A program made the position numbers and the translations under genes. The notes beneath the pieces were generated by a model. That model was not told the origin of the DNA, ran no database searches, and worked only from the letters and a program-made list of their open reading frames with translations. Positions 1,359 through 25,070 of a stretch of DNA of 64,000 bases are shown piece after piece. The stretch comes from Isoetes taiwanensis (lineage: Eukaryota; Streptophyta; Lycopodiopsida; Isoetales; Isoetaceae), in assembly GCA_021234155.1 (NCBI GenBank), contig JAJEKV010000072.1, positions 6,466,563 to 6,530,562 on the forward strand, written 5' to 3'. How positions within the stretch are numbered: the first letter of the stretch is position 1; each line of letters begins with the position of its first letter.

Positions 1359-1372
1359 GGACATATGTCCGT
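1359..1372 (-). repeat. Single copy of the ACGGACATATGTCC motif
   Basis: Read on the minus strand this is ACGGACATATGTCC. It sits about 115 bp upstream of the methyltransferase-like exon. Flanking minus-strand sequence (TTCTAGTTTTAGCTTAAG, then GCTGCAT) also resembles the units of the array at 24370-25070. It is therefore a remnant of the same repeat family and not just a chance palindrome. Confidence 0.5.
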
Positions 1373-3246
1373 ATGCAGCACTATTTAGCTACTTAAGCTA
1401 AAACTAGAAGAATTATGCATCCTAATGTTCCCAGGAATATAAGAGACTTAGAAAGGCATCTAAAACTAAAGAGACTATCTAAGCAAATCCCTGTAATAAT
1501 ACCACTCGCTCAATCCTTGAGATGATATGTCAAAAGAAAGCAGTCCAGTTTAGAAAGCTTACTTTACTGGACACATTGAACGTGCACTTCTTTAGAAGTG
1601 CAACCAGCTGTTGCAATGCTTTGTTCGTGATACATCCCCATATCATGTCTCCATCCAAATTCTGCTAAGAACATTCAATTGAAGACAATTTTTTCCCCAT
1701 AGGAGCTAGGTAAAAGAAACTTACCTCCCGCTCTATCAGCTTTTGCTACCTAGTGCACAATAGTCCCCAATAGGCCTTACTACCAGAGGGACGTGATCAT
1801 GAGTCAAGACATGAACCTCCTTATCAGCCAGTCTGGCCCCTTCACCCACAACCAGGTGTGGCTCTTGTACACAGGCCGAATTTAATAGTGCATTAAAGAG
1901 GGCTAGCTAGGAGCATCAACTACTAGGCTTTTAAGGTCTCTACCCCCCTTCCCAATACAATGAGTCCACAGAGATCATCATTACATACATATCACAGAAG
2001 AACTAAAGAACAAGATTTAATCTAAATCACAGAGTTAGGTTCTTTAGTTATGGCTTGGTATCTAGAGGTCTAGATGGCTGCTATGGGCAAATCAATAGGC
2101 TAAACCTACTTACTCTATGTCTGGGAGGCGGATTAGACTATTGAATTGACAAAATACCTGATCCCTGGCTTGCTCCTCCTGCTCTGAACTCGACCATGCT
2201 GCAGAACTGCTAGAAGATGAAACTAGAAAGGGAAGCTGATGAGCTAAACTGCTCAGACAGACTTTGGGAGGCGAGATTGGCTCTTGGAGCAAGCAAAACA
2301 GAGCCCTAGAAGGCTGTGGACGGCATAGGATGGGAAATGCATAGAGACGTAAGCTTATTAGTAACATAAAATCAATTGGAACTGAGTACCAAACTACTAA
2401 CACATCCCCCTTCCCCTTGAGCATGAGAAAAAAATTTGACATCTCTACATGGCAAAGATCGTCATGTTTCAAAACTTTTATTTCCATTTTGCAATCTATC
2501 TTTATGCAACCAGTTCCATAGTTCTCTAATCACTTACAGCAAAGGATGTCTCATGTTTAACTAAAATTGCTCCAGCCTCTTCGTTTTTTAATTCAGGAAG
2601 GAAATCCACCAATAAGAGACTATCTAAGCAAACAAAAGGAGGATTAAAATAAATGCAAGGGAAGGTATGGGTCAATAATTTAGAACCTATATATCTTTTG
2701 GTATGGCCAAAACCTTAGGATTCAAATGTTTATTAAAGTATTGGGGATACCCGAGCCTGGTATCCCCCTAAATATTGAACAAGAAAGAAAACCACGAAAG
2801 AGCAGTGGTAAAATGGAGGAAACCAAATGGGACTTAATGGAGCACTCTTTGTAGCTTGGTATGTCTGTCGTCTTGATAAGACTGCCAGAATAAATATGGA
2901 AAGGATGCTTCTGCAAATTTCCTCTAAGTGGAGCTGTGCATGGCAATCATTGGACACTGAAAGCTTGTTTGGCATCACAAATTTAATTGGATCAAATTGT
3001 CTTATTGCAGTCAAATTAGAAGTCGTGTCAGCATCCAAGAAAAGCCAGCAGCATCGAGTGTTTGAGCTCTGCTATTTGGGGGTCGGGCTGAGGCAGATCC
3101 GGATATGAAATAGCCAGCACCTTTTTCATGCAATAATGATAGATTTAGGCATAAGAAAGGCTGATCCGGATATAAAATGGAGGAATCGGCCAGAACCCTG
3201 CTGCAAAATCCGGCATCTTCAGCCCAGAACTCCATAGCTGCTCCAA
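1373..3246. other. Intergenic or intronic sequence with no recognised gene
   Basis: AT-rich DNA with several open frames of 60-125 codons (for example 2110-2487 minus and 2827-3108 plus). None has a recognisable motif, and none shows the strand-consistent splice signals seen in the real genes here. It may contain the 5' part (intron or UTR) of the methyltransferase-like gene to the left. Nothing further can be supported. Confidence 0.4.
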
Positions 3247-3475
3247 GAACAGAAATTTTCAAACAAGAATGTATGTGGCTTTGGAAACAGAGTTACTGGC
3301 TTGGTTTTTCCTCTAAAAACAGAGTAACACGAACCCATTTTTCCTCCAAAAACAGAAATTTTCAAACAAGAATGTATGTGCTTTGGAAAGAGAGTAATTG
3401 GCATGGTTTTTCCTCTGAAAACAGAGTAACACGAACCCATTTTTCCTCCAAAAACAGAAATTTTCAAACAAGAAA
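3247..3475. repeat. Tandem repeat, about 102-103 bp unit, two full copies plus a start
   Basis: The segment AGAAATTTTCAAACAAGAA recurs at 3251, 3354 and 3456, giving periods of 103 and 102 bp. The sequence between is nearly identical (TTTTCCTCTAAAAACAGAG, then CACGAACCCATTTTTCCTCC). The open frames on both strands here arise from the repetition and are not called as genes. Confidence 0.9.
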
Positions 3476-3519
3476 ATGGACTAACCTCTTTAGCATAGAG
3501 AATATCTTTTACTGGCCAT

Positions 3520-3852
3520 TCACTCCATGAATGATCCCACTGCTTCAGATACCGTGTCAGCTCCAAGAGTTGGTTTCGGCAACATCATTTCGACTCCCAA
3601 TGAGGATCGCACCTCCACCTTGCACCATCCAACTTCAAAATGAATTGTTCCGAAGGATTCCATGACAATGCCTTTACCAACAATGTTTCCATCAATAAGA
3701 AGCTGGCATTCTGCATGAGCCATAGGACTTTAGACAAAATTTAAGACTGATTAGGAGTTGTGCAGAGAAGTAAATTACCTTGGGTTTTCGCTTCAGTAGC
3801 ATCCTGTGATGCCATATTCAACCGCTTATGATGTTTTTGATGCCTCACATAA
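3520..3852 (-). pseudogene. DUF8039-type fragment (EnSpm/CACTA transposase-associated), two exons
   Basis: Two minus-strand exons can be joined. The first (about 3852-3779) encodes SYVRHQKHHKRLN then MASQDATEAKTQ and ends at a donor (CAAG|GTAATTT). The second starts at 3710 after ATGCAG. The 68-nt intron keeps the frame, giving ECQLLIDGNIVGKG, then IHFEVGWCKVEV, LPKP and EAVGSF. This order (C-x-L-x-x-D/G, a glycine-rich turn, a short IH strand, KV-x-V, LP-x-P, E-A-x-G-S) matches the DUF8039 domain common in plant EnSpm-type transposase-related proteins. The frame meets a TGA just after GSFME, where family members continue with Trp-Pro; a TGGCC lies four bases on, suggesting a small indel. It could be a short captured fragment or a small spliced gene. 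The domain call rests on pattern memory. Confidence 0.5.
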
Positions 3853-3899
3853 CTGTAAAATGCGCCAATCTCCAACAAGACTGAAAATGGAGGTGCCGA

Positions 3900-3961
3900 A
3901 TATGAATTAGCCGGAAATGGTGAAGAAAGAATATGAATTAGCCGGAAATAGTGAAGAAAGA
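3900..3961. repeat. 31-bp tandem duplication
   Basis: ATATGAATTAGCCGGAAAT starts at 3900 and again at 3931, each followed by GGTGAAGAAAGA or AGTGAAGAAAGA. It lies in the leader side of the DUF8039 fragment. Confidence 0.9.
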
Positions 3962-4300
3962 ATTGTAACAGAAAGAAGCGCAGAGAACTTCGGGTTCAAG
4001 ATTCAATCTTGGACGCCCATTTTTCAAATTTTGAATTTCTAAAAATAGCATCATTCTCCTTAACAAACCATTAAAGCTTTTTCTGTTACACCCACCGCCT
4101 CTGATCGAGTGGTTAAAACAAGAAGAAGTGGAGACTGTTGAAGACGGAGGAGGCTTCTCAAGAATGGAGGTAGCACATGCAAAGCATGGACGTGCGTAGA
4201 CATGACTTCCAAAAAGAAAAGGCGAAAACCAGGTGGGTGCCCGTTCTTGTTTTCTTCTTGCTCTGTGAAATCTCGGTTGTTATCTTTGGCTGCAAAAAGT

Positions 4301-4425
4301 CCAGAAAATGTTGGTGGATTTCAATTTGTTTTTCTTTTGTTTGGTATTTCTGAACATGATCGAGTCCAGGAAATGTTGGTGGATTTCAATTTGTTTTTCT
4401 TTTGTTTGGTATTTCTGAACATGAT
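4301..4425. repeat. 65-bp tandem duplication
   Basis: CCAGAAAATGTTGGTGGATT starts at 4301, and CCAGGAAATGTTGGTGGATT at 4366. Both are followed by the same T-rich stretch ending in TCTGAACATGAT. It gives an internally repeated 96-codon plus-strand frame at 4202-4492, which I do not regard as a gene. Confidence 0.9.
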
Positions 4426-5185
4426 GTTAGCTGATTATTCAGATTTGCTTCAGATTTCCTTTCCCACAAACAAAAATCCTATGTACTACTGAACAAAAAA
4501 TTGTGTCCTGTGTGTAACGGACCTAGAATTTTGAGGTATGTTGTGGAATTATATTATTAAGGGGATGCAAAGGAATAATAACTCAAATACCATGCATGCA
4601 GAGTATATATCGTATATGTAGGGATTATAGGATAAATATACTGGAGGTTAGTAATAAATACAAATACAGTGGAAACTTGATGCATGTGATGGTGGAACAT
4701 TTTGGAAGGCGATAGATTGCAGCCGGATTGCTGAAGGAGCAGGGTGTGAGCAATACTCTGGGAGCGTGTTGGAGTGCAGAGGAAGCAAGCGGGATTCCAG
4801 GTGGGATCAAGCTTTACACCTGGGGTTTTTCTACTGTAGTAAAATTGTGTTAATGTGGTAGGATTGTTTCTGGAACTTAGCATAGATTTAGAGTAAATTA
4901 TAAGTACGTGGACATGAACAAGCTTGCATGATTGTATATGGAAAATATTGTATGATTGTATATTGGAAGCTTACATAAAGTATCATAGATCTAATTTTTT
5001 CTAGGGAGCCGAGTACTTAAACCCATGCTAGAAGGAACTGGGATAGTTCAGATTAGAATCTGAAGAGTGGATTAAGATAAAATTGTTGGCAGAAACCAGT
5101 TAAGACTGCAATATTTCCCTTGCATGCTGCCATTTGCACGGCATGACCCTGCTGAATTGTAATGACGAGAAAGCATGGAAAACCA
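4426..5185. other. No recognised feature
   Basis: AT-rich sequence. The minus-strand open frame at 4557-4883 has no recognised motif and no convincing splice signals. Confidence 0.4.
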
Positions 5186-5500
5186 CTTGGAATGGATCGA
5201 TTTGGGCATCAAAGGGACTGAAATATGAAGAAGACAGAATTAAGAAGTATTAGGCAAGAACTAACCAATGCTGCTGGTAGAACGACATAATCTTGCCGAT
5301 TTGGCATGCTTGGAAAGCATGTGAATCGCCCTGAAATGGGCCGATTTGGGCCTTAGGGAGGCCGAAATGGGGAAAGAATGCAGAATCAGGAAGATTGAAG
5401 CAAGATTTGGCTGCAAATAACATGATCTTGCTGGCCAGGAACTGACCTGAAACCACTCGATTTGCGCCACAAGCAGCCCGAAATGATCTAAGAATCCCTA
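5186..5500. repeat. Imperfect tandem repeat, about 120-140 bp
   Basis: Three diverged copies share the order (A/C)TCGATTTG-GGC, a short gap, (C)TGAAAT or CCGAAATG, then GAATN(A)AGAA. They begin near 5190, 5335 and 5455, with CTTGC-GATTTGG or CTTGCTGGCC segments between them. Such repeats are common in untranslated parts of plant LTR retrotransposons, and the adjoining region looks LTR-like. Confidence 0.5.
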
Positions 5501-5585
5501 AGAAGACAAAATCGGATGTGCCAGGATGATTTGGGCTGGATTCTATGGCCCAGAGGCCAGATTCGTGAGATGCAGGCCGCCTCTG

Positions 5586-6949
5586 TAACCTGCACATTAG
5601 GTTTAAAAGAAAAATAAAAATAAACAGTTAGTTCGAAATAGTTAAATGGAGTTAACACATGGGATTTAAAAAAAATCAAGTTAAAATGGTTTAGTGGATG
5701 AAGATTAGTTATAGTTATTTAATTGGTAAATTCATAAGTTGGGCTAGCTAGATATTAAAATTCTTTGGGATTAGCCTGATTAGAGATGGGCGTAACACAA
5801 AGCAAGGATATTATGAGCTAGAGAATGGGCACCGAATCAATTAAACTAATGGGCAGGGTTATGGGGTAAACGTTATTAAGGTCTTAAATAACGGTCTTGA
5901 ATAGGATAACCAACTTAGTTGAATATTGTGAATGGCAAGGAATGCTTATACTCTGACTTAGGGGTAATAGTTGCATTTTGTATTATGTTGGTCGTATTAA
6001 TAATATGAGTCATGGCTGGTTTCTCTTGTTGCCTGAAATGTGTACTATGGGATTTTTTTTTCTGATGTTGAACTTGTTGAGGCATGTACTATGATGATGT
6101 CAAGCTATAAATGGGTATAATTCTTTGATATAGACCTCTGGGGCCGGAGTCTAGGTGCGATGGTCTAGACTTCATGCGGTTTTTACAATGAGAAGAATGT
6201 AAATGTTATTATTTGAACATGGCCGTTGTTATGGTATGAGTGCGCCGTCATGCAGTTAGTGGTCCTTCAATCTTTGGGCAATGGCGTGGATGGGTGTGTA
6301 CACACGTGGTTACCCCGCCTCTATGTCACTGGCCTGATCAGCCGAGTTGACCTTGCTCAGACCCAGAGGAATATTGGTTGCAATGTTGATGCTATGATTG
6401 CTTGGTTATTACATATGTGGTCTAGAATGTTGGAATTAAGTTGCAATGGTCATGCTTGTTGGACTAATAACCTGAATTGCAGGGGCGAGGCTACAGTAAG
6501 GTTAGGTTGTTGTTCTAGGTTAATGCCTTGTATTGTTAATGCTAGATATGTCCCCGATCCCCACTTAGTCCGTGTGATTAACCCCATGGTTGATGGTGTA
6601 AGCAGAGGTGGGAGATGTTTTGGAAAGTAGTTAAGCTTCGAAAAGGTGAGAGTAGAAGCGTGTGGATTGCTATTCAATAAACTTGATTATTATTGCTATT
6701 ATTATTATTATTATTATTATATATAGGCTTGAAGCTATAATTATTAGGAACATTCATTGTGTGCGGGGATATTGCTGAGTAATGCGCAAGTATATGTTTG
6801 GGACCTTAGAATATGTACAAAGATTAAATTCTTTACCTAAGCATGCATGTATTGATTTCTTGAGTCCCAGAGGTTAAGTAGATCCAACGGTAGAGATCGA
6901 TGGGATCTCCAGTTACCGAGAGGTTAACTGGCCAGGCCCGTCACACAGT
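5586..6949 (+). mobile_element. Possible solo LTR or LTR-retrotransposon remnant
   Basis: The segment starts TGTAACCTGCACATTAGG and ends CCAGGCCCGTCACA, a TG...CA layout. A polyadenylation-like AATAAA lies near 6676, just before an ATT microsatellite. It codes for nothing recognisable. No target-site duplication is visible at these edges (GCCTC against CAGTA), so the boundaries are uncertain and the call is weak. Confidence 0.25.
6691..6722 (+). repeat. (ATT)n microsatellite
   Basis: A run of ATT/TTA triplets of about 30 bp inside the LTR-like region. Confidence 0.9.
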
Positions 6950-6989
6950 ATACTACCGAACTAAATTATGTGTCCTCATTGCTTCTGTT

Positions 6990-7115
6990 AGATTTGCATG
7001 TCCAAATACCCTTTTTTTTGCTCTTTACCTACCTTTGTTTTTCGTTTCTTTTTCTTACTTAGATTTGCAGGTTCAAATACCTTTTTTTTTTGCTTTTTAC
7101 CTACCTTTGTTTTTG
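6990..7115. repeat. 71-bp tandem duplication
   Basis: AGATTTGCATGTCCAAATAC at 6990 and AGATTTGCAGGTTCAAATAC at 7061 head two near-identical T-rich copies ending in ACCTACCTTTGTTTTT. It directly precedes the GGGTTGCCCC repeat end. Confidence 0.85.
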
Positions 7116-7192
7116 GGTTGCCCCTAGGGGGGCAATCCCTTGTTTATGTGGGTTTTTGACATATTCATGGTATATGCTAGCATATGCCTAGA
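7115..7192 (+). mobile_element. Dispersed repeat family R1, end segment
   Basis: The segment begins GGGTTGCCCCTAGGGG, a near-perfect hairpin (TTGCCCC/GGGGCAA). It continues with GTTTATGTGGG and alternating GCATAT/ATATGC words. Related copies lie at 12123-12290 (plus) and 24215-24352 (minus). A further segment that normally follows this end (GCCAAAAACTGC, then CTGTAAATTGTCGGTCG) is found at 8905-8975. That fits one R1 copy interrupted by later insertions between 7193 and 8904. Confidence 0.6.
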
Positions 7193-7335
7193 ATATGTAG
7201 CATAATAACAGGGGGTTACTTTTAGATTTTTATACGCTTTTTCATATGGTTTTTCTATGATTTCGTTGTTGTATTCGTTGAGGTGTACTAAATAGTATTT
7301 CTAGAGTGCACCCTTTATGGGCCGTTGATTTTCGT
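7193..7335 (+). mobile_element. Dispersed repeat family R2, end segment (left, plus)
   Basis: The segment starts with ATATGTAGCATAATAAC and AGGGGGTT. It continues with TTTTTCATATGGTTTTTC, a CTATGATTT word and TAGTATTTCTAGAGTGC. Copies of about the same 140 bp occur at 15145-15275 (minus) and 17657-17800 (plus). Shorter starts occur near 8053 and 14614. Confidence 0.7.
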
Positions 7336-7400
7336 TGGTTGGAAAAATCCGAGGGTTGTTGTCTTTCTCTGCATGTGTTTGTGCATGAACACTATGCAAG

Positions 7401-7532
7401 TGTGTGCATGTGCATGTGCACATGCATGTGCATGTGTGTGCATGTGCACATGCATGTGCATGTGTGTGCATGTGCATGTTCATATGCATGTGCAAGTGCA
7501 AGTGCAAGTGCATGTGCATGTGTGCATGTGTA
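7401..7532. repeat. Alternating purine-pyrimidine (TGCA/TG)n tract
   Basis: From 7401 to 7479 every base alternates pyrimidine and purine (TGTGTGCATGTGCATG and variants); after a single break similar sequence goes on to about 7532. All six frames stay open here only because of this repetition, so the His/Met- and Cys/Met-rich frames are not genes. Confidence 0.95.
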
Positions 7533-7639
7533 CTTGCCCTCTTGGATTCTTATTGCCGGAGTGGATTTTACTACCACGAGATGGATTTTTTGCTCACACT
7601 TACAAAGGTATTTGTTTTTTAATGTTTCTTCAGTTAGCA

Positions 7640-8270
7640 TAATGTTTTTTTTACAAGGTATTGGTTTCCTGATTCTACAATGTAGTCTTTGCAAAACCCT
7701 TTTGTTTCCTTCCTATGATTTGCCGCTTGATTCAAGTTTAGGCCCTCTGTTTTGCTTTCAACTCTTGGATATTTATGGCTTCGGATTGTTCATAGCAGCC
7801 AGCCTTTAGCTTCAATCAACAAACGGATTTTTATGCACACAACAAAGTGGATTATTCACGCCCTTTTCCATGTCACGCAGATCACCAAACAAAGGCCACA
7901 AGAATACATTTATATTGTAGGTTTGGAACTTTAATCGAACCGTAAAGGTGAATCATGCATTACCTTTAAGCTAGAGATGGAGCATCCAAATCATATGGAT
8001 TGATAAACAATGGTGTCATTGTGAAAGAGAAATAGTTGTAGCGAAGTAACAATATGTAGCATAATAACGAGGGTTTTCTTTGTGTTGTAAACTTTATGAC
8101 TTTCTCGTGAATAATGGGATCAATCTGCTCTATCTTTATGGTAACTTTTACTTATGTTCTATTTGTTTTATTGTGATCAAATTCAAAAGCTACAGTGATG
8201 AAAGCCTCAAATGAATTCTAGTTTTTTCCTCGGGTTTGAATTCTAAAATTTTTGTCACACTGCGGGGACG
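7640..8270. other. No recognised gene
   Basis: AT-rich sequence. A short start of the R2 repeat (ATGTAGCATAATAACGAGGG) lies near 8055. Nothing else can be supported. Confidence 0.4.
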
Positions 8271-8274
8271 TTCC

Positions 8275-8903
8275 TAAGGCCTCAAGGCAAAAATTTTTTT
8301 TGCAACACAAACCATTAACATCCAACATATAAAAATTAAATCCCCCAACACATAACAACCATTGACATTAACAACCAACACATAACTACCATTGACATTA
8401 ATTAACATAACCATTGGGTCCAACACATTTAAATTAAAATCCACCTTAAACCCCCTTTGGTTTGGGTGCATATTCACAATGAGGGGGTGACGAGGGGCGC
8501 AAGAGCCCTCATAATTGTATTTTGCACGTACGAAATCAACACCATATAGTATTCCGCTTGAAATCTTATAGTATTTTGCGAATCTTATTATACAGTATAG
8601 CAAATTTTGTACTTGCATACCCCACAAACGAGGAACTTTACGTACGGTATAGATTAAGGAATAAGGGGTGAATATGCCTATCCAACAGCTCTCGTTGCCC
8701 GGAGTCACCCCCCGTGTGAATATGCACCCAAACCAAAGGGGGTTTAAGGGGGATTTTAATTTAAATGTGTTGGACCCAATGGTTATGTTAATTAATGTCA
8801 ATGGTAGTTATGTGTTGGTTGTTAATGTCAATGGTTGTTATGTGTTGGGGGATTTAATTTTTATATGTTGGATGTTAATGGTTTGTGTTGTGTTAATGGT
8901 TTG
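8275..8903 (+). mobile_element. Fold-back (long inverted repeat) non-autonomous element, copy 1
   Basis: The left arm (about 8275-8500) and right arm (about 8690-8896) are inverted copies of each other. Both contain, on opposite strands, CCTTAAACCCCCTTTGG with TGGGTGCATATTCAC, followed by long AACACA/TTGACATTAA stretches. The 190-bp centre contains GTTTGTGGGGTATGCA-like sequence (minus strand) that is also found in the copy at 21308-21830 in the other orientation. Arms of about 200 bp and no coding capacity fit a MITE or fold-back element. The open frames over it (8274-8801 minus, 8668-8937 plus) are the two arms translated. Confidence 0.8.
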
Positions 8904-8904
8904 T

Positions 8905-8975
8905 GTGAATATGCCAAAAACTGCTTATAACCTGTAAATTGTCGGTCGCCCATGTTGCCGGATGGCTGCTTTGCA
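8905..8975 (+). mobile_element. R1 repeat, inner segment
   Basis: ATGCCAAAAACTGC, then CTGTAAATTGTCGGTCG, then CCCATG. The same order occurs at 12190-12280 and, on the minus strand, at 24215-24290. It probably belonged with the R1 end at 7115 before the intervening DNA arrived. Confidence 0.5.
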
Positions 8976-9269
8976 AACCGGCTGACCGAAAGATGGAGGC
9001 CATCGGCAAGGTAAGCCTGTCGTTTTGGTGTAGGAATATCTCTTCAGCTTGGTCCCCTTGCATGTAAGAAGCAGCCCCCTTCTTTGACAGGGCACTTCCG
9101 AGGGCCCAGATTTCGGAGCAATTTGTCAGACCAGGGATGTATTCTGTTGTTTCTTTCAAAGAGGCAAATGCGGCTTAGAAATCATGGTTGGGTTTGGGCT
9201 TGTAGATGCGTTGCAGGCTGCCGGAGGCTAAGAATAGATGAAAATGGAGTATGTGTTTTGAAATTATAG

Positions 9270-11181: not shown

Positions 11182-12122
11182 CTGCAGCAATGCTCATGTG
11201 TATATCGATTCTTCATCAGCTATTTCTCGGCATTTTTTCACAGTGGAAGTTTGTTTATATGGGACCCATCATTTTGTAGATGCATCTGCGCATAGAGTTT
11301 GTATAATATCACCACAGCTTTTGTACAAGGTTGTTTCTCAGCTCTAGGACAAGCAAACACATGGTTTTGATGAATGTAAGTGTTGCTCCGTAAGAGTTTA
11401 TGTTAAAAATTTTGCTTGCCATAGTGTACAGTTGGCAAGCGTTGTGCGCCATTGACGAGAAGAAAGAATTACTTGTGGACTTGTTTTTCAACCTTTTATG
11501 ATTTCTATTCTATCTGATGAAAACAAATGACCCTTCAATAAAGAGCCACGCAATACTCAAGAACCAGACTATTGGTAATATCATAGATTGAGCAGATCTG
11601 TCTGCGAAATCAAGTGGTTACGTTTTAGTTCATTTTTTATCAGTTAAAGTTCCATTGTTTCTCTACAACAAACTTATGATTGAATAAGCGTTGAATATTT
11701 GGATTTAAGTTACTACAAACGCAACCGGACAACCCATTCTTTTCTAATAAATAAGTAATCCGACATCTTGCTTCAAAGATGGTATGAAATGTGGGTTTGA
11801 AAGAAAATATTTTATTGCACGATGGCATATCTATTGGCCTCCAAGAACTTCTTTTGTTGCACCACATCAACGTAATACTCAGCCATATAACTCTGATGCC
11901 TTCTCTGGTGAAGAATACGGGCGTATGCGGTGAATATGCAGCTGATTGAGATTCTTAACAATTATCAAAGCATTTTGTCAAGTTTATCGGACCGCCGTAT
12001 CCAGTCCGGGATGTGGTATTTTCTGCCTTTTGTGGGCTATGCATTAGTGTAAATGTTGAGGTTCTCAACACTAACCCATCAACACCGGGCTTGGTTTGGT
12101 AGTGGAGGAATATTATCTTTTT
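11182..12122. other. No recognised gene (3' flank of the amidase pseudogene)
   Basis: AT-rich sequence. It presumably includes the former 3' UTR of the amidase-like gene (TTTTGTAGATGCATC and so on). No other motif is supported. Confidence 0.4.
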
Positions 12123-14460: not shown

Positions 14461-14717
14461 CATGCTAGGTATTTGCCTGCAGGTTTTGGATTCCTAAATG
14501 CAAGACCAAGTAATAAAACAATAGAATAACAAACAATCCTTCAAGATCTGTCTCCATCTGCACTACAATAGAATGACAAACAACGGATCATGAAATATCT
14601 GCCATCAAATATGTATAGCATAATAACAGAATGGAGGACGGATTTTCTTATGAATATGTAGCTCATGCTCATGCTATAAGATGAAATAAGATTATAAGAA
14701 TATGTAGCAAACAAGAA

Positions 14718-15089: not shown

Positions 15090-15144
15090 GCATATGCATA
15101 CGAATAAGGAGGACAAGATAAGAACCGTTAGATTGATCGACGCT

Positions 15145-15275
15145 CCAAAAAAGCCGCACTCTAGAAATACTATTTAGTATGGCCCAATGAATACAGCACT
15201 GAAATCATAGGAAAACCATGCCAAAAAGCGTACAAAATCACAAAGAAAACCCCCTGTTATTATGCTACATATTAA
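15145..15275 (-). mobile_element. R2 repeat, minus copy
   Basis: Read on the minus strand it has the same order as 7193-7335: GTAGCATAATAACAGGGGG, a CATGG-TTTTCCTATGATTT stretch, and AGTATTTCTAGAGTGC. It could be the right end of the 8-kb composite element. Confidence 0.7.
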
Positions 15276-16827
15276 ATATTAATGGCATTGCCTTCTAGAG
15301 GCCAATGGTCCTTTGAGTCCCAAATTACTATTTTTACAAATTGTAATCTTTCTCCTTTTGCTTGTTATGTTTGATGTTTGGCTTGCCCTTTTATTTGTAT
15401 GTTTTTCCCCTTTTCTGATGTGATTATTGGATAGTGATTGACCATTGCATTGGATAATTGGTTTGGGGTTTTTTAATTAGAGATTAATCTCGACCGTCCA
15501 TTTGATCCAACAATTGATCTTAGCCCCTGTCCATAAACCTCCATGTCTTAGCCCCTTTCCATGCTCTTTTGCTTTGGGTTCTAGTTTGCTTTATAATGTA
15601 CAAAAAAAACAAGGTGCTGCGCACGGAGGGTTGCCCTCCATGGCCGGAGAGTGAAGTGGCTTAAGTTGTAGTTGTAGACAATAGAGTGTTTGAATCGAAA
15701 TTGCTATTTTAGGACATTGACATTTTGTGAAGGTGATGGTACGCATTTGCATTACTAAGTTCTGCTTAGGTGTTGAGGTGTTGTTGGAGTAGGATGTAGT
15801 TGGACATATGGACACTGGGATTTGAGCGCAAGGTATTGGTATTTGGTGCTTGGTATGGAACTAGGATGGCAGAAGCATAAGGAGAAGTGTAATAAAGGAG
15901 AGAATGGATGTACATGTTCGAGCCCTGCTCGGGCCATCGGACCCCTTGTGCACAGCACCTTGTTAATCTTGCATTGGTTGCATGTGTAAATCCTGTTCGT
16001 TTGAATATGTGGATTGGAATTTAGCTTTTCTATTTGAGTTAATAAACTATTCGAAAGCATCTTTTCATTGGAAGGTAAGTTGTAACAACACAACTGAAGT
16101 TATGCATTGATAGATACAACGACATGCCAAGATATAGCTTTTAGCCTTGTACTTCAATATTTGGAGCAAAGATGACTCCCCTACCAAAACAAAAGAAACC
16201 AACAAATATAAAAGAAACGTTGACATAATATAACAAAAACATGGACTTGTAATTGGTTGTGTTAGATATTGCCTTCTCAACTTTGTTAATACATACAACA
16301 TTTACAAGCGCAAGTCAATTATGGAAATGTGCCAAGCAAACCTGGATGCTGATTTTTTTCCTATTTTTCTACTTAGGTTCGGTCTATTTTCTTTACTAGA
16401 TAGATCAGCATACTGCTCCTCCTAACATCTTCATCACGGCCTGATACAAAACAAGTGACATCAACCTCGAAGATTTTCAAACTGTTACCTTAAATGATAT
16501 GTGAAAAAAATGCACATTTAAATATCATTAATTAGACTAAGGCACTAATATGTTTACAAAATGCTACAAAAGTGGAGCTCTAGGACCATTTTGCATTTTC
16601 AAATATGCAATGAATGAAAAACTGGCAGAGAAGAATCGTGTATCTATTTGTCCTTATAGGAAGTGTTTGGATGGCATAACATTTGCACTCCATGATAGAA
16701 CATTATCTTTATGCCATCATGTTTGCAAATATGAGAACAACTACAAAGATTATAAGGGATGCTTGATCTAGGCTGCTTTACTTGCTTTAAGTCATCATCC
16801 TTTCTTTGTGTGCCATGTAAGCCATAA
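15276..16827. other. No recognised gene
   Basis: Mostly AT-rich. Short dispersed words (GTGCTGCGCACGGAGGG near 15612, CCCTTGTGCACAGCACC near 15943) recall 13215-13255 and may be ends of another small element. A plus-strand frame at 16550-16771 is Cys/His-rich (ICPYRKC, LCHHVC) but I cannot place it. Confidence 0.4.
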
Positions 16828-17035
16828 GGCGTTCAAATGCAAATTCACATCTTTGTCTTTCATCAAACTCATAACGCTTGTTTTTCAAGGTTGTAACCTG
16901 TCTCTTTGGCATACGGTTTTCAAATGTATTCACATCTCTATCTTCCCCCAATAGCATAAGTCCTTTTTTTTCCAGCATTGTAACTTATCCCTTTGGCATA
17001 AGGTTTTCAATGTAAATTCACATCTTTGTCTTCCA
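16828..17035. repeat. Imperfect tandem repeat, about 85 bp
   Basis: GTTTTCAAATGTATTCACAT-like words followed by CT(T/A)TGTCTTCC recur near 16828, 16911 and 17000. Each is preceded by TTGTAAC-TGTC-CTTTGGCATA. Confidence 0.7.
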
Positions 17036-17656
17036 TTCAGATATATGAAGCTTTATTCTGCGTACTTCATGGTCCCCTCTTAAGCTAATGAGAGCTAGTA
17101 AATACCTGGGAATATTTACTGCAGAAATGTCAAATTTTCTGTCTCAATGCTGGTAAAATCCGTCTACTCTGCTGAACCTTCCAAGGATCATTTGGAAAGA
17201 AAAACGTATGTGATCCTCAAAGTGTTCCAAATGATTTTTTGAAAACTGCACGTCTTCATGCACTTCAAGGACGCTATGTTTTGGGCTTTGCTTGTAGGTC
17301 GTATCTCCACATATCCTATAGATTGACAAGCCAGTTATCCAATAGATCTGCAGAGGCATGGAATCAGAAGAAAGTCCAGCATGAAATTACACAAAGTACA
17401 TTAGCATCCATCTTGTATTTCTTTCTCTTACTCTTAACCATCATTAATTTCTATCTTTTACTTCATGAGCAATAGTTTTCTTGGCCTCCAAGTTCTAAGC
17501 ATCCTATAAAAGAACATTCATACATCATATTATCCTATAGGAAGGTTGCAAATTACGTGAAACACTGATGGAGGCCTTCCATGGGAGACATGGGCAATGA
17601 GCCTTACCACCTGCAAGACCAGAACAACAGTTAAAGTAATCCTTGAGTGAGAGTAA
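17036..17656. other. No recognised gene
   Basis: AT-rich sequence without motifs I can name. Confidence 0.4.
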
Positions 17657-17800
17657 ATATGTAGCATAATAACAGGGGGTTGTTTTTAAGTTTTTATACG
17701 TTTTTTCATATGGTTTTTCTATGATTTGGTGGTAGTATTCGTGCAAGTGTACTGAATAGTATTTATAGAGTGCACTCTTTCTCGACCGTTGATTTTTTAT
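17657..17800 (+). mobile_element. R2 repeat, second plus copy
   Basis: GTAGCATAATAACAGGGGG, TTTTTCATATGGTTTTTC, CTATGATTTGGTGG and AGTATTTATAGAGTGCAC follow the same order as 7193-7335. Confidence 0.7.
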
Positions 17801-18002
17801 CAAAAAGTAAATCATGTGGTCATGATTGTACTTCCTTGCATGCGCACAACAGATTTGGCATGTCTTCTGCATGAAATTTCTTATTGATTTTTCCTGTGAA
17901 TTGTGCTCTAAATTTTATTGCGTGGTGTTATGTCCACAAATAAATCGCCGTTGTACTATTTACATGTAGACTAATTTAAAGGGATTAGGCTATGCAACAG
18001 AA

Positions 18003-18082
18003 GTTCCGGAAAACCCTTGCCAAAAACCTCTCGAGTTTTGTCTGTTCCGGAAAACCCTTGCCAAAAACCTCCCGAGTTTTGC
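18003..18082. repeat. 41-bp tandem duplication
   Basis: GTTCCGGAAAACCCTTGCC starts at 18003 and 18044, each followed by AAAAACCTC-CGAGTTTTG. Confidence 0.95.
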
Positions 18083-18596
18083 GTTGATGGCCCTTCAGAA
18101 GGCCCCAGATCATGGACAGTGCCTAGGTTGCAGAAGAAACGTTGGAGAAAGAGAGCAAGTATTTTTCAAATCATTGGAGTAGCCATAGGGCTTCAGGTGG
18201 CGTGGACTCATCTCCTCGATCCGCCAATTCTCTCCTCTTTGAGGCTTCAAATGGTAAGTAAGCATCCCAAGTTTTGTAAAAATGTTCCTCAGCAACTTGT
18301 TATCTAAAGCATATGATTTAAATTCTTTCCCTTATATCTCAATACTCGTATGCAAGCAGCATGCTATCTCTAGAAACATTTGGAAACCAACAGAATCTAA
18401 ACAGTGCACTGGTCGCTTCTACAGAAAACAAGGGGTCAGAGTAGGCCTGAATAATAGAAATATCTTGCAATAGGAGAAGCACACTTTTGACATCTGGCTA
18501 CCTTACACCTTTCAGGAACAAAATTGCAGATGCAGCAGGAGCTCCATAAGCCATAGCCATTGCACGGAATTATTTTGCAATGATGCAAGACAATAG

Positions 18597-19500
18597 GAAG
18601 GAAGGAAGGAAGGAAGTATATTTTTACGTCGCACCACAAAGGCAGCGTCACGAAGGACATGCGACCACAAGTACAAAGAAAACAAAAATACATTGCATGG
18701 GCCGAAGCCCGTGAGCACCATGGCCCGGATTAAAAAACCCCACTGGGGAAAAACCGTTGCCATGATGACCACAGATCCAAAAAGCTATGCTGCTGCAAAA
18801 AGCAACAAGCATACCTCCAACAAACGTAACTTCAACAAACGCCTCGAACCGTGAACCTCTTCACGCCTAGGTGCCGAAGTAATCGGTGCGGACTCATGCA
18901 CGCCGCTTAAACCTCCATCCTCTCATCAAAACCGGGGCAAATAGATGCCGATGCGAGAGATCCCGTGCCGACCCCTCGAGTAACTCGATCAAACCACTAG
19001 ACCATAAGAGCTGCCCCGTAAACAGTAGAGTCCCAAAACCCCCATAGCAACGATTCGGCAAAGGCGGGTGGACCGTGGAGGGCACCGCCGGGGCTGAAAA
19101 CCAACGATCCAATAAGCCCAAGCGCCAGTAAGTCCAGCGGTGGAAGGCGGCGCCAGGGAAAACGCCAGAAGTCGCCGGAGGAGGTGCATCCTCCAGCCTC
19201 GCAAGGCGCCAAAGACCCTACTCCATCGCGGTGCTCCCCGGGCCATTAGCATGCTTTCGCAGCGCCTCGCCAGCATGCACCGGTGCTCAGCAGCACCGAG
19301 GTCCGCCCGTGACGCCATCCATCACCGCTGTGGCCTAGGCGCCATCCATCACCGCCAGAGAGGCTCAGCAGCGCCAGTGCACCCTCAGCGCTGAAGCAAT
19401 CCGTTGATGCTGCCACAACCCCAAAGCAATCCGTTCAGGCTGCCAAGAAAACCCCCAATCCGGTCATGCTGCAACCCCGCCCCACTAAAATGCTTATAAC
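18597..19500. other. GC-rich segment with a (GGAA)n tract at its start
   Basis: After a short GGAA microsatellite (18597-18617) base composition rises sharply and frames on both strands stay open without motifs. The stretch with CCGGATTAAAAAACCCCAC, CACTGGGGAAAAACC and repeated GCGCC/CATCCATCACCG words looks like a mobile-element fragment inserted in AT-rich DNA, but no domain can be read. Confidence 0.3.
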
Positions 19501-19659
19501 TCGCGAAATATGGCTCTGATTGACCTGAAATTTGTTGCAGAAGATAGAGGGCGCAAATACCTTCAATTTGATATGCGGCACGGCCTGAGTAGTTATGCTC
19601 AATCAAAGTTTCAAGGCTGGGCCATGGGCGCTGGGCGCCACAAGCAAGCGTCATCAACT

Positions 19660-20172
19660 CATGCAAGTCTTCTCTTTGAATCATTTAAAGTCACATTCTC
19701 CATTATTTTGAAAGCATGAGCAGTAGAACACGACAGGTTTATTGGTAGTCTGTAGAAGTATGTGGACTGCAGCAGGAAACTCTGGAGGGTAATTCCCTAT
19801 TAACATGTATGAAAACTGTAATAGAATGGAAGAATCATTGTCATGTATGAAAAGTGGTGATAGAATGGAAGAATTATGCAAAGTATTTGACAGATTACTG
19901 AACAAAAACTTGGTCTTTTGTATGTGTTCATTACAGGTCTTGCCCAATATGCTAAAGGCATAATGGCATTATACTATTTTGAGAGGATGAAAGAAGAACA
20001 TATAAAACCTGATAATATTACATTTTCCTGCAATTTAAGAGCATATCGCAATGTACAGATCATGGAGCGTGGCCTTCACATAGATATTATGATTGGAAGT
20101 AATTTTATGAAAATGTATGCTACGTATGGCAGCTTGGAGTGTGGCATTATAGTCTATGAACATCCAGCATAG
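19660..20172 (+). pseudogene. PPR protein fragment (PLS type)
   Basis: Two in-order pieces are recognisable. Near 19688, VTFSIILKA followed by a stop resembles the VTF-x-x-(I/L)-L-K-A-C helix of PPR motifs. From 19930, ITGLAQYAKG, YYFERMKEE, IKPDNITFSCNLRA and IGSNFMKMYATYGSLE follow the typical (I)-x-GY-x-Q-x-G, F-x-x-M, P-D-x-(I/V)-T-F, G-N-x-L-(V/I)-x-M-Y-(A/S)-x-x-G-x-L order. Organelle RNA-binding PPR proteins have many such motifs. Here only two or so remain, with stops and without start or end, so it is a broken copy. It is in the same orientation as the larger PPR pseudogene at 27-28 kb. Confidence 0.7.
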
Positions 20173-21307
20173 CACAGTTAAGCATGGCTTGATAGTTGCT
20201 GCTTATTTTCACATCGTATCGATGAAAGCTTACATATTCAGTTCATCATGGTAGGTAGTTAGATATATAATTAGATGTGCTTTCAAACACATCTGTTTTA
20301 CTGTGTCTACATTGATGCAAGGGTGCTCAAAAGTAATTTTCCATGCCATGTTTGTCTAAAACATGGATTCAACTTATACAGATAGATAGATAGATAAATA
20401 GGAAGCCTGTCACTTTATGCATTTAGCTTATATGTTCTGCCTAGCTTACGGGTAGCATATATGGAGAATAGAACATGCCTTGGGAAATAATTTCTCACTT
20501 AGAGTAACCAAGTTGTTATGCACACCATGTAATGTTACATCTATTTTAGAGACATGCTTTGTTGGAAACTTCACAACATAAAGGGTGTTACAGGACTATC
20601 ATTATGCCATTGTTATGACCACATGAATAGATGAGTGCTGCTTTAAGTTGTTACCAAAGGCCATAGGTCACTTCATCCTGCAATTGTGTTGACACTCCAT
20701 TCTTTACTAAATGAAATCTAATGCTTCCTTATTGAGTTAGTAAATGGGCCCATTTTTTTGTCCATGGTTTTTTGAAGTTGGATTTTTATATTTGATGCGC
20801 CCAGAGACCTTGAAGACTTGGGATGTTTCTTCTTTTTTTACAATCAAGCTTGCCTAGTTACAAGTGCATAAAGTGACTGTTGGATGCTATGGGAACAATG
20901 TCAACAGATGAGATTGTCACCAGATGCTATGTTGGAGCCCACGAACATCCCCTGCTTGTTGAACAAGTTTTTAAATGCTGGATTTTGATATGATGTCATG
21001 GGAGTCTTGAATGCAACCGCTAAGGTATTTGGTATTTGAGTTCTTGACAAATGTGCTACAGGACTAGGTTGCATATTTATTATGTTACTGACAAGAGCAA
21101 AGCATTTTGATAATAAAAAATTGTAACATGGGTTACCATTTGTCTATTATCTATCGTGGTATTATGTCACACTTAATATTAGGACTTCGAATGTAATGGC
21201 TTGTTTTTAGCTCTACTACCATTGTTACATGCATTTATGGATTTCTTAGTGCCCTTCCATCCATCATTAGAGTATTAGGTAATGTCTATATCTACACCCC
21301 TACACCA
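20173..21307. other. No recognised gene
   Basis: AT-rich DNA with a short (GATA)n near 20384. No coding signal was found. Confidence 0.4.
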
Positions 21308-21830
21308 TCCTTAAGGCCCCGAAGGGGCCAAAAAATTTTTTAGTTAACACAAACTATTAACACACAACTAACATTATTAACATAAACCATTGCATTTGAC
21401 ACATTTAAATTAAAATCCCCCTTAAACCCCCTTTGGTTTGGGTGCATATTCACACGGGGGGTTACTTCGGGCAACGAGAGCTGTCGGATGGGCATAATTG
21501 CCCTTTATTCCAAGATCTGGACCGTACATAGCGATCCTCGTTTGTGGGGTATGCATGTACAAGTTTTTGTATACTGTATATTAAGGTTTGCAAAATACTA
21601 TAAGGTTTGAAACAATGTACTTAATGGTTTTAATTTTGTACATGTATTGTAAATTTTTTGAGGCTCTCGCTGCCCTACGTAACCCCCCGTGTGAATATGC
21701 ACCCAAACCAAAGGGGGTTTAAGGAGGATTTTAATTTAAATGTGTCAAATGCAATGGTTTATGTTAATAATGTTAGTTGTGTGTTAATAGTTTGTGTTAG
21801 TTGTGTGTTAGTTTGTGTTAATGCTAGATT
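21308..21830 (-). mobile_element. Fold-back (long inverted repeat) element, copy 3
   Basis: It starts with a hairpin, GGCCCCGAAGGGGCC, and AAAAAATTTTTT. The left arm (to about 21490) and right arm (21660-21830) are inverted copies containing CCTTAAACCCCCTTTGG and its complement. The central 170 bp (CCTCGTTTGTGGGGTATGCA, TATACTGTATA) is the reverse of the centre of the element at 8275-8903, so this copy sits in the opposite orientation. It has no coding capacity. Confidence 0.85.
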
Positions 21831-23455
21831 ATTAACTTACTAACTGAACTGGCATAACATAAATTAACGCCTTTTATTTGGCTTACAGGTCTTAACATAT
21901 ACTAAAAATCATTTGTGTCTGATGTGGAGAAAACAAAACCTTGTGAGGGATCTTTCTATGCCACTCAACATATCTACTATTCGTATTACATTTTAATGGC
22001 CATGTCAAGTCTATACTGGCCTACAAACATTATCTCCATGATAACATGTTTCAACCGGAAAACTTCACTCCATCCGTCCTCAAGGTGAAGCAATATCTGT
22101 GCACTTTAATACAGCGATTGCATGCAACTTGATCAAGGACAATAATAACCAGATGTTTCAACAGAGTCTCTGTTCCATAGTAAACATAATGAGTGTTTGC
22201 CACATTTTTCTAAAGTAGAGGCAAGCAGTGGAAAGAAAAAACTAGCCACAAGATGCAACATCACAAAACCAGCAAAACCAATGGTACCTGTCATTTGCTA
22301 GGCTTCAAGCTTCCTGCATAAATTCCGCTACATGTTCCAGTGCAGAATTAAATATCTTGACAAGTTGAGTATAAACTAGGCTAGCATTGCAGGAAACTTT
22401 AGCACCCCAATCTACATTTTGTAGATAGCTGGACTGACTCAAATAAACAAGTCTTTGTAGTCTGACAAATACTTAGTTCCTGAATCTACAAATGCATTTG
22501 GTATCAGTATGCATCATTGTGATGTCAAAACACATCATATGGCTACATTCTTGGTTACAAAAGCACTATGCATAAATTGGCAGGACTTTTGCTGGGCTAA
22601 AATCTAAGAACCTCAATCTTTCAAGCATCTGCACTGTAGATAGAGCAACAAGTCGGTTTTTAGTCCATTCAACTCTACGATGACTACCTGACTTTGCAAC
22701 TTTTTTTGATATTTCAGTGGCTGTTTCATGCACACAATTTCTTGGTCATAATCAATATCGGTAGTTTAGCATGAACCAATACTACTGCTAAACCATTAAC
22801 CAATACTACTGCTAAAGATATTTATTAGAAAAAAGTGCATGTCTGCTTCTTGAATCCATTCCATGATGAACACAGCTCTTGCTATGCTTGATACTACTAC
22901 TAATCACTACATCCAAGGTACATTGTAAACAGAAAAGCAACAATCTCACACATATGTATTTGTTTCAGCATACAGTCTACGTGCTCTTATGCATAGTCCC
23001 AACCATCACTTGCTAACCGTGCTTGCGTTAAACCAAAGCATGAATTATCTTTCTCGTAGCATTCTGTCCCATTAAAATCTATGGCTGCAGAAAATCACAA
23101 GTGGCCCAGGGATGCTTCCTTGCTCTGCTGCATGAGGTATTTGTTTAAGGAGATTAAGTATGGGGTGTTTGGCCTGAAGGATTCTTCATGAAAGTGGGCT
23201 TAAAGAGAGAACAATGGAGAACAATCAGAACCAAAGTGATAGCATGAAGTCAATGGTCTGCATTACTCAAAATAGATGTTAAATTTCAAGATGAGCTAGA
23301 TTCTGAATGGACACACACATCTCCAAGTAATACAATTTGGATTATTTTTTCACCAATAATGCAGAAGTGATGCATGTTCCTTCCAATTCCCCGCTATTAA
23401 AATTTATAGAATTGTACCTTTCATGGCGTGCTTTAGATCTTTCTTGATCTCATTC
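21831..23455. other. 3' flank of the HAD gene; no recognised gene
   Basis: AT-rich DNA without motifs. Part may be the 3' UTR of the HAD gene: on the minus strand a donor-like AAAG|GTACAATTC lies just downstream of its stop. Confidence 0.35.
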
Positions 23456-24058
23456 TTATCTAGTCCTGAAGTGCCGCTGAATCAACTGTGGGAGCTCGTT
23501 CAAGGAATTTACCCTGAAGGTGGGACGATGTTGTGGTTGTAGCTTATCAACATCCTTATAGCGATAGAGAGGGTCAACAAGACATGTCAATGGCCCGGCA
23601 CTGTTGCCACAATCAATGTCATACCTAGGCATATCGCCCACCATTAGAACATCTTCAGGCTTCACACCCCACTGTTTGCACACATGCAAAAGCGGTTCTG
23701 GGGATGGCTTCAATGAAGGATATTCTTTGCCAAGTATTGGTGAGAATGTGGTGTGGAGTTCAGCCTGAAATCGCTCAGCCTCATCCTTACTACTCAAAGT
23801 CACTATTCCGCGATGCAATGGGATGGAGCCTACAAATTCACATACCTCCTTGGCTCCAGGAATGGCAGAATTGCAGCCCTGCCTTTGTCTCTGGGCAATC
23901 TTGATCAATTGACAGGCATGCTCCAACTGCTCCCTAGTAAGGTGGTCTGGATTTGAGAGCACCTTCTGGCACAGCGCATCCAGGTCCAGAGATGGTGGAA
24001 TTCGTAGCGTGCCATCTAAGTCGAAAATTATCCCCCGAAGCGCTCTCATCGCCTTCAT
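23456..24058 (-). CDS. HAD-superfamily hydrolase, intact single-exon gene (200 aa)
   Basis: The frame opens with MKAMRALRGIIFDLDGTL. DLDGT is the HAD motif I with the nucleophile and acid/base aspartates (residues about 13 and 15). IVTLSSK (about 95-101) gives the motif II Ser/Thr. SLKPSPEPLL (about 115) supplies the motif III Lys, and MVGDMPRYDIDCGNSAG (about 139-155) gives the acidic motif IV with GD and D. All four catalytic motifs are present in order and the length is normal for a small soluble HAD phosphatase of the phosphoglycolate-phosphatase-like group. Plants have similar proteins (for example Arabidopsis At2g33255, from memory). The substrate cannot be told from sequence. No clear transit peptide precedes the domain; a second Met four residues in is an alternative start. 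It stands alone with R1 upstream and a fold-back element downstream. Confidence 0.88.
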   Translation of the reverse strand: MKAMRALRGIIFDLDGTLRIPPSLDLDALCQKVLSNPDHLTREQLEHACQLIKIAQRQRQGCNSAIPGAKEVCEFVGSIPLHRGIVTLSSKDEAERFQAELHTTFSPILGKEYPSLKPSPEPLLHVCKQWGVKPEDVLMVGDMPRYDIDCGNSAGPLTCLVDPLYRYKDVDKLQPQHRPTFRVNSLNELPQLIQRHFRTR

Positions 24059-24214
24059 CTCTTCTGATCTGCTTTTGTTATGGCAAACGCAAGATATAAT
24101 ATCCTAACGAAAAGGCTAAAATAAAAGGTATTCACTTCCGCTTGTTAAAGATGATAAACCACGCCTAATGAACAAGGTGCTTGGAAGAAGAAGAAGGGTC
24201 GAGCTGCGCCGGAA

Positions 24215-24352
24215 TGGGGCTGGATGACCGACCATTTACAGGCAACAGCCAGTTTTTAGCAGTCATCAACATATGCTAGGTATATGCCAGCATATACTTG
24301 AATATGCCCACATACCCACATAAACGAGGGTTTGCCCCCCTAGGGGCAACCC
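24215..24352 (-). mobile_element. R1 repeat, minus copy
   Basis: On the minus strand: GGGTTGCCCCTAGGGGGGCA, GTTTATGTGGGTATG, GCATATTCAAGTATATGC, TGACTGCTAAAAACTGGC, CTGTAAATGGTCGGTC. It matches 12123-12290 in order. It lies 160 bp upstream of the HAD gene start and 18 bp before the first motif of the array that follows. Confidence 0.65.
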
Positions 24353-24369
24353 AAAAATGTAGTGTTGTT

Positions 24370-25070
24370 ACGGACATATGTTTGCAAAACCCTTTTCTTA
24401 GCTTTATGCTTTAGTTTAGTTTATAATGCATAAAAAATGTATCAAAATAAAAAAGAAAACGAAAATGCTCTACTTTATTTTATAGCATAGAAAAAATGTT
24501 TATTACGGACATATGTCTGTAAAAGCCCAGTTTTGTTTTGCTTTATTCTCTAGTTTAAGGAAATGTGGATGGTGCATAGTCTGCAAACATCTAGTTTTAT
24601 ATTGCTTTGCATCTAGATTATTTAATAAGGAAACGTGCACAGTGCATTGAAAAGGAAAATGTATAATTCTTTATTACGGACATATGTCTGTAAACCTTTA
24701 GTTTTATTTTTATTTTCATCTAGTTTATTTTAAAAGAAAATGTGGAAAGTGCATAGAAAAAAAGGCATAATATTGTATTACGGACATATGTCTGCATAGT
24801 ATCTATTCTATTCTATTCTATTCTTCTACTTACACTTCTAGTTTTGCCTTTTTTCTAGTTTAGCTTGAAAAGAAAATGTGAGCAGTGCATAGAAAGGGTA
24901 ATCCATAGACCTTACTACGGACATATGTCTGCAAACCTCGAGTTTTGTTAGTTTATTGTATTGTTTTTTGGACATATGTCTGTAAACCTTCACTATATCA
25001 AAGTAACTAGAATAAAGAAGATGGAAAAGAGAATCAAGTTCTAAGCCTCTTTTCTACAGACATATGTCTG
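24370..25070 (+). repeat. Minisatellite of ACGGACATATGTCTG motifs (seven copies plus a remnant)
   Basis: (A)CGGACATATGTCTG(T/C) occurs at 24370, 24505, 24676, 24780, 24917, 24970 (GGACATATGTCTG) and 25056 (ACAGACATATGTCTG), with a degenerate TCTGCAAACA near 24590. The core GACATATGTC is a perfect palindrome. Between motifs the sequence follows one consensus: GTAAACCTTTAGTTTT, a CATCTAGTTTA word, AAAGAAAATGTG, then AGTGCATAGAAA. Unit length varies from 53 to 171 bp. The array ends 18 bp before the open frame of the ParB-like gene. Repeated palindromes next to a mobile-element-like gene resemble subterminal protein-binding repeats of DNA transposons; that is inference. Confidence 0.9.

Follow-up and report, generated by a model that had tools for sequence, protein, structure and literature searches.

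In the ParB–parS system, a ParB-like protein is accompanied by clustered long palindromes near its own gene. Among transposable elements, two described systems stand closest to the one treated here. Sola1-1_Ec32 of the brown alga Ectocarpus, 21.5 kb in length, bears a ParB-like/N4-N6 methylase gene opposite a Sola-1 transposase, and the part of the report drawn on here also cites ParB-like/methylase cases from green and red algae and carries its authors' suggestion that proteins of this kind may attach to the element encoding them and modify it epigenetically (Genome Biol 2025 26:320, PMC12477816). In VANDAL21 of Arabidopsis, motif arrays lie in the introns of VANC21 and VANB21 and upstream of VANA21, and motif and protein are described, in the portion of the paper used here, as changing together (Nat Commun 2017 8:2161, PMC5735166). 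The present study concerns a stretch of 64,000 nucleotides from Isoetes taiwanensis (assembly GCA_021234155.1, contig JAJEKV010000072.1, positions 6,466,563 to 6,530,562), hereafter the window, in which a palindromic motif is repeated immediately 5′ of an exon with a ParB-like domain. The motif belongs to a DNA transposon of ~11.2 kb, bounded by terminal inverted repeats (TIRs), of which the genome holds several close copies alongside many diverged families. Of its features, the palindrome arrays seen across the families most deserve further study.

The transposon and its palindromes

Allowing up to two mismatches, the pattern ACGGACATATGTC matches the window 15 times, both strands counted, whereas 100 shuffles averaged 0.72 matches and never exceeded 3. 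These matches amount to eight palindromic sites, one at 1357–1372 and seven at 24370–25071 in pattern coordinates; as full 20-bp palindromes, the sites occupy 1355–1374 and seven positions within 24368–25073, and the full palindrome of the window family approximates TTACRGAC-ATAT-GTCYGYAA. The first-pass annotation, made from the letters of the window, had the motif occurring seven times in 24370–25070. The repetition is real and over-represented, but the exact 13-mer is present on the plus strand in four of the seven array sites (24505, 24676, 24780, and 24917), and the count of seven needs mismatches because the other three sites carry one (24370), two (24968), and one (25056). The minus-strand copy of the 13-mer is exact at 1360–1372. 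The flanking words quoted in the first-pass annotation are present as well. The window has no Rfam match at gathering scores. The two palindromic features are the following:

1355..1374, no strand: single palindrome TCATGGAC-ATAT-GTCCGTAT, preceding the transposase start; the same site is found in copies C1065, C949, and C1027
24353..25078, plus strand: palindrome array, with 20-bp sites starting at 24368, 24503, 24674, 24778, 24915, 24966, and 25054; the match to the element runs from 24353 to 26798

Searches of the 1.66-Gb genome returned at least 116 matches to the methylase-like exon and at least 86 to the exon that follows the array. The two exons stand together, in the same order and on the same strand, in C1065, C949, C1027, C556, C969, C1100, and C1037. 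The exact 16-mer ACRGACATATGTCYGT is found at 10 sites, distributed over seven loci, whereas its reversed control has none; each of these loci has the first exon downstream of such a site. C1065 and C949 align over ~11.2 kb, mostly at 97% identity, and C1027 aligns at 86–97%. Homology ends at 25-bp TIRs, which in C1065 are identical at 23 of 25 positions (left, AAGCACTATTTCATTAATTTGAGAA; right, reverse complemented, AAGCATTATTTCGTTAATTTGAGAA), and the C1065, C949, and C1027 copies are flanked by the 4-bp target-site duplications TAAT, AGCT, and ATTA, respectively. A diverged copy, C1034, has a TIR of its own (AAGCTCAATTTCATTAAAATGG, 23/25 identical) and the duplication TCAA. TIRs combined with a 4-bp target-site duplication are hallmarks of Sola DNA transposons, and both are present in all four elements whose two ends were located. 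The transposase is a 983-residue frame on the minus strand that matches DUF7869 (Pfam, E 5e-41); three D-containing motifs, which might be those of a Sola-type DDD/E transposase, are kept in all three long transposase frames.

Opposite the transposase, and divergent from it, are an exon encoding an N-terminal and a ParB-like domain, a 515-residue methylase-like exon frame and then a NIF/HAD-phosphatase-like open reading frame (ORF), the last with Pfam NIF matches of E 4e-10 in the main family and E 4e-16 in C995. This ORF (L009:6468-7502, L038:4358-5380) has DCNG or DING at the position of DxD, which we take to be the usual motif of NIF-like HAD phosphatases. A ParB-like plus methylase gene lies opposite the transposase in C1065, C949, C1027, C1030, C995, C976, and C1042, with ParB recognized by weak sequence evidence and unseen in C1042. 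Pfam places none of these proteins with the VANDAL elements (Mutator-like elements, MULEs): the transposase matches DUF7869, the last ORF matches NIF, and the others produced nothing above cut-off. A repeat-built control region in a plant mobile element whose product is ParB-like and N4/N6-methylase-like, as the first-pass annotation had proposed, is thus borne out: first exon, methylase exon, and array recur in order elsewhere in the genome, and the methylase fold is supported by a structural model.

Palindrome arrays across families

Palindromes were found 5′ of the ParB-like or methylase exon at all 16 loci scanned, and they have a common geometry of 20 bp, composed of an 8-bp arm, a 4-bp core, and an 8-bp arm. 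The arms are of seven types, mostly specific to a family. In the main family, C1065, C949, and C1027 hold 8, 9, and 8 sites against 0.2–0.3 in shuffles under the looser of two tests; the palindrome tests left out C556, C1037, C969, and C1100, of which C556 and C1037 show five and four GACATATGTC cores. In C1034 and C1030, whose transposase is ~51% and whose methylase is ~30% identical to that of the window family, the arms CAGAC/GTCTG recur with variable 4-bp cores at 12 and 9 sites, compared with 0.3 and 0.4 in shuffles. C995 has no CAGAC/GTCTG sites and instead carries TTGCGGGC-N4-GCCCGCAA. The arms are TCACGGAC in C1099, C1101, and C1107, TCTCGACT in C1042, and AGTGTATT-N4-AATACACT in L048, L049, and L050 (8, 9, and 3 sites). 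A strict test restricted to like-armed sites, which left out C1027 and L048–L052, counted 3–12 in C1034, C1030, C1099, C1101, C1107, C995, C976, and C1042, whereas shuffles gave ~1 and the five control stretches 1. A cross-table of arm classes, which left out L050, has 0 sites in 30 kb of the window plus 13.8 kb of flanks. Two further loci, C952 and C907, were chosen solely because they have a transposase without a listed methylase neighbor, and an array was predicted in each beforehand; on the 5′ sides fetched, both proved to have a divergent ParB-like exon with an array of TCTCGACT-N4-AGTCGAGA palindromes (8 and 13 sites). Genome-wide counts on one strand, pattern against reversed pattern, were 504/15 for TTNCRGACNNNNGTCYGNAA, 3687/1 for AGTGTATTN4AATACACT, 6767/0 for TCTCGACTN4AGTCGAGA, and 81/0 for TCACGGACN4GTCCGTGA.

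Judged from sequence, the palindromes are probably candidate sites for the element's own ParB/methylase-like protein, through which the promoters of the element would be controlled or protected. Specifically, a dimer of this protein would bind the 20-bp palindromes, and binding would either control the element promoters or shield them from host silencing, much like the anti-silencing VANC proteins with the motif arrays of VANDAL. Where a related family has kept DLPY intact, its protein may, in addition, methylate DNA near the sites; that of the window family would act by binding only, because its catalytic motif is lost. The sites lie 5′ of the ParB-like exon and, in C1034, C1030, C995, C976, C1042, and L048, also in the stretch that separates the ParB-like exon from the methylase exon or ahead of the latter; others follow the ParB-like exon in L052 or, in C1034, C995, and C976, stand close to where the methylase exon ends. 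Three main-family copies (C1065, C949, and C1027) have no site between the exons and no site of the class near their TIRs.

This placement bears on the possibility that the transposase, and not the ParB/methylase-like protein, binds the arrays. Such binding would resemble that of TNPA to the subterminal repeats of CACTA elements; one site of the window family does stand by the transposase start, and two palindromes in L042 lie beside a transposase fragment with the ParB-like and methylase domains unmatched. We consider this improbable, as the sites are internal, kilobases from the TIRs on which a transposase acts and near which the three main-family copies have none, and as some fall between the exons of the other gene. 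A subterminal array, envisaged in the first-pass annotation, is ruled out on the same grounds: the array is central in the element, between two divergent genes and kilobases from the TIRs. That the arrays are neutral tandem duplications in young elements, with no binding role, appears very improbable. Regular spacing in some of them (~42 bp in L048 and L049) is what tandem duplication would leave, but in C1034 and C995 the 4-bp core varies and the arms stay constant, the 8-4-8 geometry recurs across families that differ in their arms, and shuffles and control stretches reach only ~1 site.

Several observations weigh against binding by the element's own protein, among them one on a long interspersed nuclear element (LINE). 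A LINE-like repeat (L039–L041, on C179, C394, and C368) carries TTTCAGAC-N4-GTCTGTAA palindromes, the same class as in the C1034 and C1030 transposons, before an endonuclease-like ORF (Exo_endo_phos in L039, E 1e-8), in L040 within tandem units of 193–198 bp. No ParB or methylase match was found in the 6.5–6.8 kb fetched at these loci, and manual sorting assigned LINE-like cores to 33 of the 50 listed TTNCRGACNNNNGTCYGNAA sites, 11 of them at L039–L041. The loci opened for TTNCRGAC..GTCYGNAA were this repeat and L042 (C165:76500-84000), a repeat of unclear nature in which a 2.5-kb direct repeat and two TTACGGACTTTGGTCCGTAA palindromes accompany a transposase fragment, with no ParB or methylase match. 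The LINE-like repeat, together with the location of sites where promoters are expected, is compatible with a further alternative, in which the palindromes are recognized by host transcription factors at promoters, have been adopted by several unrelated transposable elements, and leave the ParB/methylase-like protein doing something else. We regard it as unlikely, since seven arm classes of one geometry, mostly tracking family, would require several host factors with the same site architecture, and since the sites between exons in six loci, and after the ParB-like exon in L052, count against it.

There are further points on the opposing side. The strict like-armed test found 2 sites in C1065 and 1 in C949, low values that arise because the arms there are imperfect. 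C976 carries two arm classes, TCACGGGC and TTGCGGGC; the classes TTACRGAC, TTTCAGAC, TCACGGAC, and TCACGGGC overlap; and the cross-table places 2–4 sites in L042, L039, and L040. The protein clades were judged by identity, and all families come from one genome. For TCACGGAC, linkage was counted for 50 of the 81 sites (31 clusters): 9 of the 31 clusters listed are near a gene match, all on its 5′ side, and 22 are not, the gene-match lists being lower bounds. The first-pass annotation had asked whether most motif copies lie away from such genes; for the exact 16-mer all seven loci are beside the gene, whereas for the looser palindrome class most copies do lie elsewhere, many apparently in the LINE-like repeat. 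The divergent arrangement has exceptions, because in C1034 the transposase has undergone internal rearrangement and for the most part shares the strand of the methylase, and because that of L050 is downstream and convergent. The ParB label is weak and rests on a motif and weak profile matches: ParB_N (PF02195), a profile the first-pass annotation had proposed as a check, matched nothing in the genome and none of the aligned members, and the model of the ParB exon is poor (pLDDT, a predicted local-distance confidence score, 49.3). Finally, among the three opened loci of the DLPY family described below, one (L050) has a transposase match, at 32% identity, and its fragments have no Pfam match.

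Beyond binding by the element's own protein lies a more far-reaching proposal, which we hold only tentatively: that these elements form a superfamily with a self-recognition code, in which each family's protein recognizes its own palindrome, arms and protein diverge together, one branch writes methylation while the others now only bind, and one of the codes has been adopted by a LINE so as to use the same protein.

The encoded ParB-like and methylase-like domains

A structural model of the methylase-like domain, built from a 15-member alignment, has a mean pLDDT of 63.9 (mostly 70–90 over the core strands) and a predicted template-modeling score of 0.47. Foldseek matched it to 88 PDB chains at E ≤ 0.001, and the 50 listed are all DNA or METTL3-14-type methylases. 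The best on realignment was CcrM (6pbd_B; Z 16.8, root-mean-square deviation 3.8, 215 residues), followed by M.BceJIV (Z 16.0) and the bdelloid N4CMT (Z 15.0). The model thus supports a predicted β-class N4/N6 DNA-methylase fold, like that of these three enzymes. The catalytic motif IV of the β class is (D/N/S)PP(Y/F/W). Where β-class methylases have DPPY, the window type has LDLH, LDLY, VDLH, LNLM, LNLL, or INMI, at a position derived from the alignment and predicted strands and in part presumed; where they have FxGxG, it has an EWYMHG-like sequence at the expected position. Motif IV was absent, at that position, from all 10 window-type members examined, and because it is replaced in these ten, methylase activity of the window family seems unlikely. 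Sequence searches of Pfam, PHROG, NCBIfam, and PDB found no methylase match for the window family, and its ParB signals were weak.

The second profile suggested in the first-pass annotation, PF01555, likewise misses the window family, yet other parts of the genome hold at least 150 matches to it: 150 of 150 scored were above cut-off, among 1444 candidates (e.g., C976:451678-452409). They represent a very large family whose N4/N6 DNA methylase looks intact. The three PF01555 loci opened (L048, L049, and L050) carry ADLPYG and DAFSGSGTT, and L050 combines a PF01555 match of E 6e-19 with matches to phage methylase profiles. L048 and L049 have a ParB-like exon, detected with the window-type exon as query (E 2e-5 in L049, 7e-4 in L048). 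From these sequences the DLPY family is likely the same kind of transposon, although of the three stretches fetched that of L050 alone contains a transposase match.

For the ParB-like domain, the weak matches were to the phage profiles phrog_1033 (E 0.004, in 3 of 13 members) and phrog_723 (E 0.018, in L049) and, for the L048 exon, to DUF6551 (E 0.0023). The poor exon model had no ParB fold among its matches, which tells nothing either way. Matches of the first domain to Ran-binding and PH domains (best Z 5.2) were too weak to use. In viral contigs there were 26 pattern matches with A1, none of which was confirmed.

The copy in the window and comparison with described systems

The remaining parts of the element in the window are as follows:

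1..1076, minus strand: methylase-like exon, C-terminal part, beginning near residue 126 of the 515-residue C1065 exon; 96% protein identity to the C1065 copy, DNA 95.9%
1077..1243, minus strand: transposase open frame, residues 1–56, with one frame break; from tblastn with the C1065 transposase (residues 1–43 and 45–56); joined to the methylase part at 1076/1077
1077..4274, plus strand: central region of the element, in pieces 1077–1487, 2614–2808, 3048–3376, and 3316–4274, colinear with C1065 9826–11830
6948..7114, plus strand: further piece of the central region, C1065 11986–12153
15273..15619, plus strand: further piece of the central region, C1065 12258–12603
25079..26408, plus strand: first exon, with the N-terminal and ParB-like domains; frame broken in the window copy
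26604..26798, plus strand: methylase-like exon, initial ~65 residues, truncated at 26798, from comparison with other copies

From 1077 the window is colinear with C1065 up to 15050, reached at 26798, with gaps where other DNA intervenes. The junction at 1076/1077 is an inversion junction, 15233′|9826 in C1065 coordinates, and comparison of copies indicates that ~182 bp are absent between the two complementary methylase pieces. The sequence layout is as expected if the stretch from the start of the transposase to the methylase exon was inverted and sequence was then lost at the second breakpoint. The motif at 1355–1374 precedes transposase residues 1–56 (1243–1078), which now abut the methylase half. 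It does not lie ~115 bp before a methyltransferase-like exon, as was first thought: the frame starting at 1243 on the minus strand is transposase, and methylase-like sequence begins at 1076, ~280 bp away. Nor are there two genes 24 kb apart. The two parts belong to one gene, complementary except for the missing ~182 bp and split by the inversion and by inserted DNA, which rules out a pair of sister genes with a common promoter repeat. The first observation was largely right and its interpretation half right, with one element and one gene in place of two. No further part of the transposase was found in the window, and the last match in the copy comparison puts the right end of the element beyond the left edge of the window, near C1081:6458196 and past an interruption. 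With its middle inverted, sequence lost at one breakpoint, frames broken, and other DNA inserted, the copy is dead and in its present state not functional.

Several other features accompany it. A 49-nt word (with GCCCCCCTAGGGGCAACCCAAAAA) is inverted at 24309–24357 and 7110–7158; one copy ends within 5 bp of the start of the element match (24353), and the word is perhaps the end of another inserted element. A HAD-hydrolase ORF (23459–24058, minus strand) and a pentatricopeptide-repeat ORF (27161–27589, plus strand) flank the ParB half, and pentatricopeptide-repeat genes agree with a land-plant genome. Long near-perfect inverted repeats at 8303–8890 and 21345–21799 (183 nt, 98%, and 137 nt, 97%, with loops of 222 and 181 nt) resemble foldback elements or miniature inverted-repeat transposable elements. 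Between 46400 and 57300, several repeat families recur every ~2.2–2.8 kb, perhaps as a diverged tandem array or nested copies.

Our search of the open-licence literature found no description of these palindrome arrays, and the part of a Ceratopteris paper used here (PMC9477723) has nothing on such arrays. The first-pass description of the family as undescribed was nevertheless too strong, given the ParB-like/methylase gene reported opposite a Sola-1 transposase in a brown alga (PMC12477816). Sola1-1_Ec32 is the nearest precedent in architecture, a large DNA transposon with the same pair of domains encoded opposite its transposase. It comes from a brown alga, not a land plant, and the portion of the report drawn on here does not mention a palindrome array, a lost catalytic motif, or a NIF-like gene, whereas palindromes were present at every locus scanned in Isoetes. 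Self-binding of the ParB-methylase protein was proposed there with no binding site named in that portion; the arrays supply a concrete candidate site for each family, and the proposal therefore becomes testable. Long palindromes cluster near the gene much as in ParB–parS, although here the ParB identity is weak and there is no sign of partition.

VANDAL/VANC is the nearest precedent in behavior, an element-encoded protein paired with arrayed short noncoding motifs. As given in the portion of the paper used here (PMC5735166), the VANDAL21 motif YAGTATTAY is not a long palindrome, unlike the 20-bp sites of the present element; VANC has DUF1985/DUF287, neither of which was matched in the element proteins; and binding by VANC has been shown in Arabidopsis, whereas binding of the Isoetes arrays is predicted. 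If the palindromes are bound as suggested, these transposons would stand beside VANDAL/VANC as a second plant-transposon case of a protein and its site changing together, in elements with an unrelated transposase, and would be a source of paired DNA-binding specificities.

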